Origin: Thermoflexus hugenholtzii
GTDB lineage: Bacteria; Chloroflexota; Anaerolineae; Thermoflexales; Thermoflexaceae
Length of the DNA: 64,000 bases
Assembly: GCF_018771565.1 (NCBI RefSeq)
Contig: NZ_CP076326.1
Coordinates: 3,038,001-3,102,000, forward strand
Direction of reading: 5' to 3'
Part shown: one piece after another, positions 4,714-26,958 of the stretch
Position numbering within the stretch: the first letter of the stretch is position 1
How the letters are laid out: each line of letters begins with the position of its first letter
Notes under the pieces: model-generated
Databases searched by the model: none
Told to the model about the DNA's origin: nothing
What the model saw: the letters and a program-made list of their open reading frames with translations, nothing else
Program-made: the position numbers and the translations under genes

Positions 4714-4729
4714 ACGGGGGAACTTCAGG

Positions 4730-4802
4730 CAGGCCGGCCAGGACTCGAACCTGGAACCTGCGGATTTGGAGTCCGCTGCTCTGCCTGTTGAGCTACCGGC
4801 CT
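4730..4802 (-). tRNA. tRNA-Trp (CCA anticodon)
   Basis: The minus strand folds into a cloverleaf with acceptor AGGCCGG/CCGGCCT, anticodon stem GCGGA/TCCGC with loop CTCCAAA (anticodon CCA), and T-loop GGTTCGAGTCC. The 3' CCA is not encoded. Its place between rpmG and secE is a common bacterial arrangement. Confidence 0.95.
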
Positions 4803-5121: not shown

Positions 5122-6324
5122 TTAGTCGAGGATTTTGGTGACCACGCCGGCGCCGACGGTGAGGCCGCCTTCCCGGATGGCGAAGCGCAGCCCTTCCTCA
5201 ATGGCCACCGGCGCAATCAACCGCACCCGCAGGTTCACATTGTCCCCCGGCATCACCATCTCCACCCCCGCGGGCAACTGAATCTCCCCCGTCACATCCG
5301 CCGTCCGAAAGTAAAACTGCGGCTTATACCCGCTGAAAAACGCCTTGTGCCGCCCCCCCTCCTCCTTCTTCAACACATACACCTCCGCCTCAAACTCCCG
5401 ATGCGGCTTGATCGTCCCCGGCGCTGCCAGCACCATCCCCCGCTCCACCTCCTCCTTCGCCACACCCCGCAACAAGCACCCCACATTGTCCCCCGCAATC
5501 CCCTCCTCCAGCGACTTGTGAAACATCTCAATGCTCGTCACCACCGTCCGCTTCACCTCCTCCCGCAGCCCCACTATCTCCACCTCCTCCCCCGGCCGTA
5601 TCCGACCCCGCTCAATCCGCCCCGTCACCACCGTCCCACGCCCCTTAATGCTAAACACATCCTCAATCGGCATCAAAAACGGCTTGTCCACCTCCCGCAC
5701 CGGCTCCGGAATATACTCGTCCAGCGCCCGGATCAGCTCCCAAATCGGCCGATACTCCTCCGCCTCCGGATCCGTGCTCTTGCTCTCCAGCGCCCGCAAC
5801 GCACTCCCCCGAATCACCGGCACCTCATCCCCCGGATACCCATACTGGCTCAGCAAATCCCGCACCTCCAGCTCCACCAGCTCCAGCAACTCCGGATCAT
5901 CCATCATATCCACCTTGTTCAAAAACACCACCATCGCCGGCACGTTCACCTGCCGCGCCAGCAGCACATGCTCCCGCGTCTGCGGCATCGGCCCCTCCGG
6001 CGCCGCCACCACCAAAATCGCCCCATCCATCTGCGCCGCACCCGTAATCATATTCTTGATGTAATCCCGATGCCCCGGACAATCAATGTGCGCATAATGC
6101 CGCCGCTCACTCTCATACTCCACATGCGTAATGTTGATCGTAATCCCTCGCAACCGCTCCTCCGGCGCCTTGTCAATCCGCTCAAACGGCACAAACTCCG
6201 CTAACCCCTTCAACGACAACACCTTCGTAATCGCCGACGTCAGCGTCGTCTTCCCATGATCAATATGCCCAATCGTCCCCACATTCACATGCGGCTTCGC
6301 CCGCACAAACACCGCCTTCGACAT
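5122..6324 (-). CDS. tuf: Elongation factor Tu
   Basis: EF-Tu (400 aa) delivers aminoacyl-tRNA to the ribosome. G1 [11 protein letters not shown]3 DCPGH and G4 NKVD are all visible in domain 1, followed by the beta-barrel domains ending [11 protein letters not shown]. The ATG at 6324 has an [12 protein letters not shown]; an in-frame upstream extension lacks conservation and is rejected. The gene follows three tRNA genes, as in the E. coli tufB operon. Its coding strand is strikingly purine-rich with G-ending codons, unlike the C/G-ending mix of neighbouring genes. Confidence 0.97.
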
Positions 6325-6475
6325 CGCTCGCCTCCTCTCGAAGAAGGTTTCAGTCGGGTTCGGAACTTTGCAGCCTGCACCACCCATACGGATGCCCGGG
6401 GCATGAGCCGGGCATCCCCCGCGGTTTTCCAACAAAAAATAAAAATCAAGTGCAAGCGTCTGAGAGATGAACAGG

Positions 6476-6548
6476 AGCCCACGACGGGACTCGAACCCGT
6501 GACCCCACCCTTACCAAGGGTGTGCTCTGCCGCCTGAGCTACGTGGGC
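6476..6548 (-). tRNA. tRNA-Thr (GGT anticodon)
   Basis: The cloverleaf has acceptor GCCCACG/CGTGGGC, D-arm GTAGCTCAGGCGGCAGAGC, anticodon stem CACCC/GGGTG with loop TTGGTAA (anticodon GGT) and T-loop GGTTCGAGTCC. The 3' CCA is not encoded. It is the tRNA nearest to tuf. Confidence 0.95.
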
Positions 6549-6641
6549 TCGCGGAACTGCTTCTGCCGGGACAACCTGGATCAACGATGGGCCGGTGCGA
6601 TGGGCCGGGGCGCATGGGCGCCCCGGCGTGAGCCGTTTCAG

Positions 6642-6724
6642 TGGGCGGGGAGGGATTCGAACCCCCGAAGGCTTCCGCCACCTGGTTTACAGCCAGGCCC
6701 CGTTGGCCACTTGGGTACCCGCCC
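6642..6724 (-). tRNA. tRNA-Tyr (GTA anticodon)
   Basis: The 83-nt gene has acceptor GGGCGGG/CCCGCCC, anticodon loop CTGTAAA (anticodon GTA) on a CTGG/CCAG stem, and the long variable arm typical of bacterial tRNA-Tyr. CCA is not encoded. Confidence 0.95.
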
Positions 6725-6730
6725 AGGTCA

Positions 6731-6803
6731 AGCCGACGGCGGGATTCGAACCCGCAACCTCGCGCTTACAAGGCGCTTGCTCTACCGGTTGAGCTACGTC
6801 GGC
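6731..6803 (-). tRNA. tRNA-Thr (TGT anticodon)
   Basis: Acceptor GCCGACG/CGTCGGC, D-arm GTAGCTCAACCGGTAGAGC, anticodon loop CTTGTAA (anticodon TGT) and T-loop GGTTCGAATCC are all present. It is the first gene after the promoter at 6816-6845. CCA is not encoded. Confidence 0.95.
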
Positions 6804-23083: not shown

Positions 23084-24421
23084 TTACGCGGAGGCCGCCA
23101 TCGCCCGTCGCAATCCCCACAGCAACGCCAGGGCCAGGGCGTAGAAGCCGAAGGAGAGGGCGAACAGCCCCCGGTAGCCGATGAGGTCGGCGATCAGGCC
23201 GCCCATGGCGGTGGAAAGCAGGGCGACGCCCAGCAGGGTGTTGGTCAGGCCGATGGTGAGGGGCCGATCGTGGCCCGGGGCGATCTCCAGCAACAGGGAG
23301 AGACCGCCGATGGCCGCCCCGGAGGCGTAGGCCCCGCTCAGGACGAACACCGGCCCCATCAACGCCTCCGCCAGGCCCGGCTGCACTGCGCTCAGGGGCC
23401 CCACCATCAACGCCCACAGGACGCTGACCAATCCGCAGGCGGTGGCGCCCTCCAGCACCGCCCGATGGCCCCACCGCACGCTGATCCAGCTCCACAGCAG
23501 GTTAGAGAGCAGGGAGGCCCCCACGTTCAACCCCAGGTAGATCCCGATGGCCGCGTCCGGGATCCGCAGGTCCCGGACCGCGTAGGCGGTGAAGAAGGGG
23601 GTGGCGATGGCCGCCCACATCAGCGCCATCCGGGCTCCCAGGAACAGCCGATAAGGGATATGGCGCCAGAGGGCCCGGACGGCCTCCCGCCATGGGAGCG
23701 GCGCGGCATAACCGTCCCGGGTGGGGCTGGGCGGCTCCACCACCATGGCGAAGACCGCCATCCCGACGGAGGTGAAGACCGCGAAGATCAGGAACAGCAA
23801 CGCCACGTTGTAGGGGAAGAACAGCCCCGCGCGCTCCTCCAGGAGCAGACGGACCAGCCCGCTGGCCGCCAGACCCAGCAGCCCTCCGAAGAAGAGGCGG
23901 GCGGCGAAGAAGACGCCCCGCTGCCGGGGCGGGATGGTCTTGCCCACGATCTCCATAAACGGCAGCCCGGAGATCCCGGAGGCGAGGGAGATCACCAGAT
24001 AAGGCAAGAAGAAGGCCAGCAGCATCCATGTCGGATGCGGGGCGGCCAGCCAGATCCCCAGGGCCATGGCGAAGGCCCCTGCCGCTCGCACGAAAGCCAT
24101 GCGACGATACAGGTCCATGTAATACACGCGATGCCGCATCCGCCGGGAGACGAAGAGCTGGGGCAGGAACCACAGGCCGTCCCGCATCGGGGAGACCAGG
24201 GCCAGCAGGAGGTTGGGCGCCCCCAGGCGGGAGAGGAACCAGATCAGCACCAGGTTGGGATCCAGGATGGTCTCCGCGAAGATGAACAGGGCGCCGTTGA
24301 TCACCCCCACCGTGAAGTTGCGCCGCAAATGCGGATCGCGGGCCTCCCCGGAGATCCCCAGAGAAGCCCGGAGCCGCGCGGAGCGCATCCGCCATTCCCG
24401 CCAGACCTGCATCCCCTTCAT
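23084..24421 (-). CDS. Major facilitator superfamily transporter
   Basis: The 445-aa polytopic membrane protein has about 12 hydrophobic helices in two halves. A cytoplasmic loop (PPSPTRDGYAAPLPWREAVR) separates them, and GKTIPPRQRGVFFAARLFFGG resembles the intracellular loop 4-5 of MFS exporters. Substrate is unknown. Its start overlaps the PrsW stop by 4 nt (ATGA), making it the last gene of a three-gene unit with PrsW and the DsbA-cyclophilin lipoprotein. Confidence 0.85.
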   Translation of the reverse strand: MKGMQVWREWRMRSARLRASLGISGEARDPHLRRNFTVGVINGALFIFAETILDPNLVLIWFLSRLGAPNLLLALVSPMRDGLWFLPQLFVSRRMRHRVYYMDLYRRMAFVRAAGAFAMALGIWLAAPHPTWMLLAFFLPYLVISLASGISGLPFMEIVGKTIPPRQRGVFFAARLFFGGLLGLAASGLVRLLLEERAGLFFPYNVALLFLIFAVFTSVGMAVFAMVVEPPSPTRDGYAAPLPWREAVRALWRHIPYRLFLGARMALMWAAIATPFFTAYAVRDLRIPDAAIGIYLGLNVGASLLSNLLWSWISVRWGHRAVLEGATACGLVSVLWALMVGPLSAVQPGLAEALMGPVFVLSGAYASGAAIGGLSLLLEIAPGHDRPLTIGLTNTLLGVALLSTAMGGLIADLIGYRGLFALSFGFYALALALLWGLRRAMAASA

Positions 24422-25653
24422 CCTCCTTGCGATGATCCCCCTGCCGACGGTTCAACCGGATCCTCTCCGCCCGCCAGCGCCGGCAGAGCCCATCCCAATC
24501 CGATGAGAACCGCCAGCCCCACCGCCCCCATCCCGATCAGCACCGGGGGCGCGATCAGGACCCGGACCCGGTCGGGGAGCGGAGTTAGGAAGCCGATCCC
24601 CAGGAGCAGCGCCCCGGCGTTCCAGAGGCTGTGAAGTAGGACGACCAGGAGATACGCGCCGAGGCCCGCGCCCGGACGACCCTGACGGAGCATCCCCCAG
24701 GCCCATCCCATCAGGGCGCTGTTGAAGACATGAAGTGCTGAGGCCTCCAGACGCCCCAGCGCCGTCAGCGCCCAGGGAGCCCCCAGCGTCCAGTTCAAGA
24801 GATTCTCCGCGATGGCGAAGCCGGTGCCTCCCAGCGCCCCATACAGGATCCCCTCGGCGGTGGGAGCCCGGGCTCGCAGGAAGGCCGGCAGCGGCTTGAC
24901 CGCCTCTTCGATCAGCGGGACCAGCCCCGCGCCGCCGATGAGGAGGGCCGCCCAGACCCACGGATCGCCGAGCAGGCGCTCGGTGGGGACGACGGGGGGC
25001 GCGCCCGGGGGGAACCCCATCGGGAACCACCGGCGGATGAAATCGGGGCCCTCGACGACGAGCCGCGCGATCAGCAACCCCAGGCCCAGCCCGACCAGTG
25101 CCATCCCCTCCAGGAGGAGCGCCAGGCCCGGCGCGGCCAGCCCCCCCAGGCCCAGGCCCCACCAGGTCCGACGGCGGGACCAGGAGGCGGCCAGGCGCTG
25201 GCGCAACAGGTTGAACCACCACAGCGGCCCCAGCACGGCGATCCCCGCGTGGAGGGGAAGGAGCACGATGGGAAGATCCGGAGCCAGCCGCTCGACCACC
25301 GCCCCGCATCCGATCAGGATCAGAAGGAAGGACAACATCCGGACCTGGGCGGCCAGAGTGGGGACGGGGAGCAGGGCGTCCGGTATCCCCCGGGTGATCC
25401 GGATGCCCTCCTGGAAGAGCCCTATCCCCATCAGCAAGCCGAGGAGGAGCAGCCCCGGGGGCGGCATCGGCGCGCTCAGGAGGGCGGCGAGAGCCGCCAG
25501 CCCCAGCCACAGCCCGCCGAGGGCCACCCCAGTCAGGAGGCCCGCCGCCACCCATAACGCGCCGGTCGGCGAGGAGCGCTCCGCGACCTCCTCCCGGGCT
25601 TCCGCCGAGTGGTACCTTTCGGATGGGTCCTCCGGGATCGGCGGGATGCCCAT
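24418..25653 (-). CDS. PrsW family intramembrane metalloprotease
   Basis: The 411-aa protein has about ten membrane helices and the PrsW/CAAX-like motifs in order: LIEEAVKPLPAF (EExxK), GFAIAENLLNW (E-N), ALHVFNSALMGWAWG (H...N/S) and LLVVLLHSLWNAGALL (H...N). In B. subtilis PrsW cleaves an anti-sigma factor; no sigma/anti-sigma pair is beside it here. It lies 40 nt after the DsbA-cyclophilin gene, hinting at an envelope protein quality-control role (inference). Confidence 0.87.
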   Translation of the reverse strand: MGIPPIPEDPSERYHSAEAREEVAERSSPTGALWVAAGLLTGVALGGLWLGLAALAALLSAPMPPPGLLLLGLLMGIGLFQEGIRITRGIPDALLPVPTLAAQVRMLSFLLILIGCGAVVERLAPDLPIVLLPLHAGIAVLGPLWWFNLLRQRLAASWSRRRTWWGLGLGGLAAPGLALLLEGMALVGLGLGLLIARLVVEGPDFIRRWFPMGFPPGAPPVVPTERLLGDPWVWAALLIGGAGLVPLIEEAVKPLPAFLRARAPTAEGILYGALGGTGFAIAENLLNWTLGAPWALTALGRLEASALHVFNSALMGWAWGMLRQGRPGAGLGAYLLVVLLHSLWNAGALLLGIGFLTPLPDRVRVLIAPPVLIGMGAVGLAVLIGLGWALPALAGGEDPVEPSAGGSSQGG

Positions 25654-25693: not shown

Positions 25694-26929
25694 TCAGCGT
25701 TCCTCGATCACGACCTCCAGCAGCCGGTCGCCCGGGGGCGCCCCGGGGTCCGCCTCCGGGTTCCGGGGCCGCAGGGCGCGGACGACCTCCAGCCCCTCCA
25801 GCACGCGCCCGAAGATCGTATAGCGGCCGTTCAGCTGAGGGAGGGGCGCCATCGTGATGAAGAACTGGCTGCCGCCGGTGTTCGGCCCGGCGTTCAGCAT
25901 CCCGACCATCCCCGGCGCGTCGAAGGTCAGGGTCTCCGTGATCTCGTCCGGGATGGTGTAGCCCGGCCCGCCGAACCCGGTGCCGCTGGGGTCGCCGGTG
26001 ATGGCCACCACGTCGGAGATCACGTAGTGGAACGTGATGTCGTTATACCAGCCCTGTCGGGCGAGGAAGACGAAGTTGTTCACCGTCACCGGCGCTCGAT
26101 CCGCGAAGAGCTCGATCACCACCTCGCCCTTCTCCGTCTTCAGGATGGCGCGGTAGCGCCGCGTCGGATCGATGGTCATGGGCGGCGGGGCCGGGAAATG
26201 ACGCTCCGCCAGCCGGGCCAGCTTCACCATGGCCTCCAGGTGGGCGTATTCCAGGTAATTCAGGGTCTGCGGCCATGGACGCCCGTTGACCAGCAGGAAG
26301 GGCGTGCCCGGGAGGCCCAGGGCGACCGCTTCCGCGTAGGCGGCCTCCACCTTGGCCCGATAGCGTCCCTCCTCCAGATCCCGGCGGAACCGCTCCGCGT
26401 CCAGCCCCAGGGTCCGCGCCGCGGAGATCAGGGTTTCGGTGATGTTCGAGCTGGCGACCCACTCCGCCTGATGCGCGAAGAGCCAGTCGTGCATCTCCCA
26501 GAACTTCCCCTGCGCCCCGGCCGCCTCGCTGGCCTCGGCGGTGATCATCGCCTTGTCGTGGATGGTCCGCAGGGGGAAATGCCGGTAAACCACGCGCACT
26601 TCATTCGGGTAGGCGTCTACCAGACGCCGGAGCAGCGGTGCGAGCTGCCCGCAATACGGTCACTGGAAATCGCCCCACTCGATGAAGGTCACCCGGGCGT
26701 CCGGGGCGCCTTTGCTCCAATCCTCCGGCGTCGGGAAGAGGATCCGCTGCAGGTCCGGGGTGGCCGACGGCGCCGTAGCGGCCGGGACGGTGGCCGTGGC
26801 CTCCGGGGACGGGCTGGGAGAGGGGGGAGCCGTTGGGGTCCCCGCTCCCCCTGGGCCGGGCGTGGGGCGGGCGCAGGCCGCCAGCCCCAGCGCAATTAGC
26901 GCGATCCGAACATAGCCTCCGTTTCGCAT
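25694..26929 (-). CDS. DsbA-cyclophilin fusion lipoprotein with in-frame UGA (probable selenoprotein)
   Basis: Reading through one UGA gives a 411-aa protein. Residues 1-19 are a lipoprotein signal (LIALGLAAC), and a P/T-rich linker runs to about 60. A DsbA-type thioredoxin domain follows (about 60-225: VTFIEWGDFQ, then UGA, then PYCGQLAPLLRRLV, with the cis-Pro loop LPGTPFLLVNG). A cyclophilin-type peptidyl-prolyl isomerase domain ends it (about 235-411: VTVNNFVFLARQGWYNDITF, NTGGSQFFITMAP, GRYTIFGRVLEGLEVV). The UGA (26660-26662) replaces exactly the first Cys of the CPYC motif. The ATG at 26929 has an AAGGAG SD. A conventional caller would split or truncate this gene. A nonsense mutation is the alternative. 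Confidence 0.85.
26630..26662 (-). promoter_or_regulatory. Candidate bacterial SECIS hairpin downstream of UGA
   Basis: On the minus strand, nine nt after the UGA, GGGCAGC (26644-26650) pairs with GCTGCTC (26630-26636; one G-U) around a 7-nt loop TCGCACC. Position and size resemble bacterial SECIS elements, which lie immediately 3' of the Sec codon. A second hairpin GGCGTC/GACGCC follows at 26612-26628. Function is inferred. Confidence 0.5.
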
Positions 26930-26958
26930 CGGGAACTCCTTCCCCCTTTCGGATGTAA

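Follow-up and report, generated by a model that had tools for sequence, protein, structure and literature searches.

DsbA-like selenoproteins, described as known in the earlier note on this DNA, are already established (PMC1088965, PMC1794560 and PMC13188914, as excerpted), and the excerpted text of PMC13188914 lists the NF041057 Rcas_1661 family as a DsbG-like selenoprotein with a UxxC motif and confines the bSECIS hairpin to a loop of 3–9 nt with a G in the first two positions, located 16–37 nt after the UGA. A literature search, with subscription papers outside its scope, returned nothing relevant on a DsbA/peptidyl-prolyl Sec fusion, on Thermoflexus selenoproteins or on a cyclophilin-thioredoxin fusion. 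Here, we analyzed a window (the whole stretch of DNA under study, 64,000 nt) from the heat-loving Chloroflexota bacterium Thermoflexus hugenholtzii, in which the earlier note had proposed a probable selenocysteine (Sec) in a DsbA-cyclophilin lipoprotein. This proposal is supported by the Sec machinery of the genome, by relatives with either TGA or Cys at the same codon and by a hairpin, absent from the earlier note, that fits the bSECIS model. The gene carries the following features.

25694..26929, minus strand: candidate Sec-DsbA-cyclophilin lipoprotein gene, 411 residues through UGA readthrough, then a TGA stop
26936..26941, minus strand: Shine-Dalgarno-like AAGGAG, 6 nt before the ATG, read from the sequence
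26873..26884, minus strand: predicted lipobox LAAC, residues 16–19, with Cys19 as the lipidated residue
26660..26662, minus strand: in-frame UGA, putative Sec90, which opens the UPYC motif
26273..26725, minus strand: DsbA / Thioredoxin_4 domain (Pfam), residues 69–219, with the cis-Pro motif T209-P210
25766..26143, minus strand: cyclophilin domain (Pfam), residues 263–388; the structural model covers 250–411

As described before, the frame is open on the minus strand from the ATG at 26929, preceded by AAGGAG at 26941–26936, to the terminal TGA at 25694, with a single internal TGA that falls on the first Cys position of a CPYC motif (GDFQ-U-PYC). The lipoprotein assignment agrees with the LAAC lipobox at residues 16–19, and Cys19 was invariant in an alignment of nine diverse fusions. 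The N-terminal domain scored above the curated Pfam cut-offs for both DsbA (PF01323, 67.9 bits vs 25.6) and Thioredoxin_4 (PF13462, 69.1 bits vs 23.2), carries the CxxC-type motif as UPYC with T209-P210 conserved, and resembles solved DsbA proteins by sequence (best match 3gyk, 4e-19). The C-terminal domain matched the cyclophilin profile (PF00160) at 130 bits, above the curated cut-off. An AlphaFold2 model of the fusion had a mean pLDDT of 88.6 and was confident from about residue 60 onward; cyclophilins were the sole matches returned by a fold search with the full-length model, and its C-terminal part matched solved cyclophilins with Z 25 and an rmsd of 1.9 over 154 residues. A scan of the window for motifs with U or C in this position gave 42 mechanical matches; only that at 26662 appeared genuine from its motif and homology, and the rest were judged by eye.

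The standard open reading frame list cuts the gene in two (27316–26660 and 26599–25694), which is exactly the split expected if the UGA were a true stop, leaving either a pseudogene or two genes, one for a lipoprotein of 89 residues and one for a protein of 301 residues reinitiated at the GTG at 26599. Against this stands the conservation of the codon. All eight genomes of the genus Thermoflexus that yielded the gene (the source and seven others) carry the same TGA, the UPYC context is conserved, dN/dS between genus members after the TGA ranged from 0.03 to 0.13 in both domains, purifying selection acts on both sides of the codon, and no internal stop other than the TGA at the Sec90 codon occurred within the matched region of any homologue. 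Moreover, a start at 26599 would drop the active site and the first strands of the DsbA domain, and UGA and Cys interchange across the class together with a matching hairpin. A pseudogene or split gene was therefore rejected on the eight genomes and dN/dS, and a true stop is very unlikely; the earlier argument that a chance nonsense mutation would rarely hit this codon holds up on the eight genomes and on the homologues free of any other stop. A sequencing or assembly error, by which TGC was read as TGA, is practically inconceivable and was likewise ruled out, since independent genomes of eight genus species and dozens more carry TGA at this codon while their synonymous sites have diverged.

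Of 298 genomes sampled from the class, 90 gave a match to the DsbA-cyclophilin fusion at E≤1e-65 (one of these matches, in G137, spans the cyclophilin half only), and all 36 positive genomes of a phylum-wide sample belong to this class, Anaerolineae. Thus, the fusion, which as a Sec-DsbA joined to a peptidyl-prolyl isomerase was regarded beforehand as unusual, is no isolated case. Among the first 91 loci, the Sec90 codon was TGA in 31, Cys in 47, Ser in 9, Ala in 3 and Asp in 1, and 18 more TGA genes and one extra copy of a known TGA gene were added afterward. The in-frame UGA therefore aligns with a conserved redox Cys, present in 47 homologues; close relatives all carry TGA, and distant fusions carry either TGA or TGC/TGT. 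On the protein tree of the fusions, in which the column of the Sec90 codon was retained with U written as C, the Sec state requires 13 changes, at least 10 of them on well supported branches.

Several variants of the fusion were observed. In the clade of L036 and L076–L080, the motif reads CDFQ[S/A]xGC; Ser or Ala replaces the initial Cys of CxxC, and a new Cys lies four residues upstream. L094 and L095 carry CDFQSPYC. The family of L038 and L043, in the Cys form, has an extra cyclophilin domain in front, giving a cyclophilin-DsbA-cyclophilin order.

The genes selA, selB, selD and selC, for which the earlier note had suggested a search and of which it had made its proposal depend on selB and selC, are present in the host genome (one contig, 3.32 Mb, 98.6% complete): tRNA-Sec with a UCA anticodon (78 bits), SelA (563 bits), SelB (326 bits, summed over pieces) and SelD (377 bits) all scored above curated cut-offs. 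Of the 80 genomes with the fusion, 36 carry TGA, each together with SelA or tRNA-Sec, and the six that lack both are without TGA (p=0.03). Some genomes that possess the Sec machinery have Cys homologues, which shows that Sec is not obligatory. That the UGA is read through as another amino acid, by stop-codon reassignment or near-cognate readthrough, is a reading to which computation is partly blind, as the inserted residue is invisible to it; it is nevertheless highly improbable, given that the gene itself terminates with TGA, that tRNA-Sec(UCA), SelA and SelB are present along with a hairpin fitting the bSECIS model, and that the only other UGA-containing gene encountered in the genome encodes SelD, a known selenoprotein family (L018, genome 2801258–2802193, in-frame TGA in CAGUASK). 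The hairpin after the SelD TGA has a CGUG-containing loop and resembles the second of the two SECIS types described below for the fusions. The SelB model also matched, with equal score, two elongation-factor-like genes at genome 123089 and 3043413 (window ~5413–6288). An Rfam search of the window found no RNAs other than tRNAs, which are a Trp tRNA at 4728–4802 and a Thr/Tyr/Thr cluster at 6474–6803.

Two hairpins lie downstream of the UGA.

26612..26628, minus strand: candidate bSECIS hairpin GGCGUCU-GGU-AGACGCC, loop UGGUA 37 nt after the UGA
26630..26650, minus strand: second, proximal hairpin GGGCAGC-loop-GCUGCUC, between the UGA and the bSECIS hairpin

The Thermoflexus bSECIS hairpin, with a UGGUA loop and a stem of 6–7 bp, lies within the published limits, its spacing of 37 nt standing at the edge of the 16–37 nt range in the excerpted text (PMC13188914). 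Taken alone, the Thermoflexus 51-nt segment after the codon had only a moderate folding advantage over shuffles (z −1.74); the hairpin evidence is comparative. In this 51-nt segment, TGA genes folded more stably than Cys genes (mean z −1.58 vs −0.23, p=3e-7), and a scan by the bSECIS limits excerpted from PMC13188914 gave mean scores of 11.3 for TGA and 5.3 for non-TGA genes (p=3.5e-14), these p-values being inflated by shared ancestry. In phylogenetically independent pairs, the hairpin tracked TGA in 8–9 of 10, usually with 0 contrary (median p 0.008). Two hairpin positions cover nearly all TGA genes, and a few genes score for both. The first, in the Thermoflexus gene and 25 others, has a 7–8 bp stem with a GGU-like triloop and UGGUA 37 nt from the UGA; the second has a stem with a CGUGYU-type loop 23 nt after the UGA. 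Of 42 distinct TGA genes, 39 have one or the other hairpin, vs 2 of 57 genes without TGA, both positions having been chosen after viewing the sequences, a bias that the scan by published limits and the Cys controls reduce but do not remove. The stems show many compensatory changes among fusion genes. In Thermoflexus, the stem forces two codons that are rarely used in seven genes of the genome, CGT (7% of Arg codons) and GTA (2% of Val codons), yet both are invariant throughout the genus. Across the genus, synonymous codons stay unchanged over at most 9 successive positions, a run that ends at residue 106 and overlaps the hairpin at only p=0.026. Two Cys-form genes (L054 and L143) keep a stem of the second SECIS type and may be relics of a recent Sec-to-Cys change.

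In the cyclophilin half, two replaced catalytic positions map as follows.

26024..26026, minus strand: Tyr302, which occupies the position of the catalytic Arg (CypA R55)
26000–26002, minus strand: I310 replacing Q63

With R55, F60 and Q63 of CypA, in the numbering we assume, taken as the catalytic residues, Arg, Phe and Gln are replaced by Y302, V307 and I310 in the Thermoflexus gene, as is seen in the stretch FHRVIPDFVIQGGDPTG of 3jb9 chain d vs FHYVISDVVAITGDPSG of the Thermoflexus protein. Thus, the residues of an active PPIase are absent, and PPIase activity is doubtful. The catalytic Arg is kept in 44 and the Gln in 45 of the 52 aligned fusions, and the aligned genus members are without Arg, Phe and Gln; in its aligned sequences, the Thermoflexus genus has lost catalytic residues that most relatives keep. 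The domain, which is under purifying selection, probably still binds peptide. The description of an intact cis-Pro loop and whole cyclophilin domain accordingly stands for T209-P210 and for an open, conserved frame, but not for these catalytic positions, and the term folding enzyme may not extend, in the sense of a folding isomerase, to the Thermoflexus cyclophilin half.

The protease gene noted after the fusion lies close by.

24418..25653, minus strand: gene for a membrane protease of the PrsW family, 40 nt downstream of the fusion, a conserved neighbor

Its product matched PF13367 at 52 bits vs a cut-off of 23.5, confirming it as PrsW. A profile built from the neighbors placed PrsW as the next gene downstream, in the orientation of the fusion, in 40 of the 78 loci with enough flank, alike with the Sec, Cys and Ser forms. 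The PrsW gene overlaps the next gene (MFS_1) by ATGA (window 23084–25653), which suggests an operon with translational coupling downstream of the selenoprotein gene, with which PrsW may be co-transcribed. Elsewhere in the genome, a Cys-type DsbA relative (3282637–3283098) stands directly before a VKOR gene (3283234–3283596), so a conventional oxidative pathway exists alongside the selenoprotein; a weak DsbD/CcdA-like gene was found at 314198–314722 (27 bits).

From the directly computed conservation of the UGA, downstream constraint, hairpin, machinery, domain make-up and neighboring gene, we infer that the locus very probably encodes a Sec-decoded, lipid-anchored Sec-Pro-Tyr-Cys DsbA-cyclophilin, with a likely redox role on exported proteins and a probable link to PrsW. 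These data argue very strongly for actual Sec insertion at the UGA. SelB and Sec-tRNA-Sec would decode the UGA at 26660, aided by the bSECIS hairpin at 26628–26612, to give a secreted, lipid-anchored selenoprotein in which a DsbA fold with the Sec-Pro-Tyr-Cys active site is followed by the C-terminal cyclophilin. Sec would most likely act as N-terminal nucleophile, making the protein a thiol/selenol-disulfide oxidoreductase that oxidizes or shuffles disulfides of exported proteins. The cyclophilin domain in most relatives probably isomerizes prolines of the same clients, and that of Thermoflexus, its catalytic residues lost, more likely binds or positions them. Because the PrsW gene follows closely on the same strand, the two proteins probably work in one envelope process, the selenoprotein being linked to PrsW-dependent proteolysis. 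A role as oxidase or isomerase is suggested by the fold family; it is putative, as are a sensor role, the handling of clients and the link to PrsW.

It is possible, though less likely, that the selenoprotein works mainly as a reductase, a peroxidase-like enzyme or a redox sensor for PrsW, and not in folding: the separate Cys DsbA beside VKOR (genome 3282637–3283596) could carry oxidative folding, and both the PrsW adjacency and the lost catalytic residues would suit such a role, whereas the DsbA fold with its cis-Thr-Pro and a cyclophilin that is catalytically intact in most relatives point to protein clients. A bolder version is rather doubtful, in which the selenol redox domain and a dead cyclophilin would form a cell-surface, client-binding redox sensor that controls PrsW and couples disulfide stress to regulated proteolysis in Chloroflexota, the SECIS having moved between two positions in orthologues with the protein sequence kept.

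The Sec-DsbA-cyclophilin reading adds a widespread two-domain selenoprotein architecture to protein folding outside the cytoplasm, in a class whose selenoproteins have been little described and for a gene that standard annotation would break in two. The orthologues form a natural experiment, with the SECIS hairpin coming and going in step with the Sec/non-Sec changes on supported branches and with two alternative hairpin positions in one family, so that Sec gain and loss and the tolerance of bacterial SelB become testable.

Compared with known systems, the fusion shares with the DsbA-like selenoproteins (PF01323, UxxC; the Sargasso Sea set in PMC1088965 and the review PMC13188914) Sec as the first residue of UxxC and a downstream bSECIS, and the excerpted texts of these two sources do not describe a cyclophilin fusion, a PrsW neighbor or two SECIS positions in orthologues. 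Like the fusion, NF041057 is a lipoprotein family with a thioredoxin/DsbA-type domain and Sec in UxxC; unlike it, the NF041057 model (247 positions) has no cyclophilin domain. Its Rcas_1661 tag is presumably that of a Roseiflexus (Chloroflexota) locus. Membership of the Thermoflexus protein in NF041057 was rejected at 83 bits for the whole protein and 85.6 bits for the DsbA half vs the equivalog cut-off of 190, and all fusions tested scored 80–123 bits, below that cut-off. The solved DsbA-family proteins 3gyk and BdbD (3eu3) have the DsbA-family domain and a CPYC-type active site, but with Cys for Sec and without a cyclophilin domain. The Cys-form Anaerolineae fusions of Bellilinea caldifistulae (L058) and Thermanaerothrix daxensis (L065) share the architecture and the frequent PrsW neighbor, but carry TGC/TGT for TGA, lack the SECIS hairpin and mostly keep the cyclophilin catalytic residues. 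Collectively, the cyclophilin fusion is a new variation on what was known before, namely the DsbA-like selenoproteins and NF041057, a (seleno)lipoprotein family of Chloroflexota.
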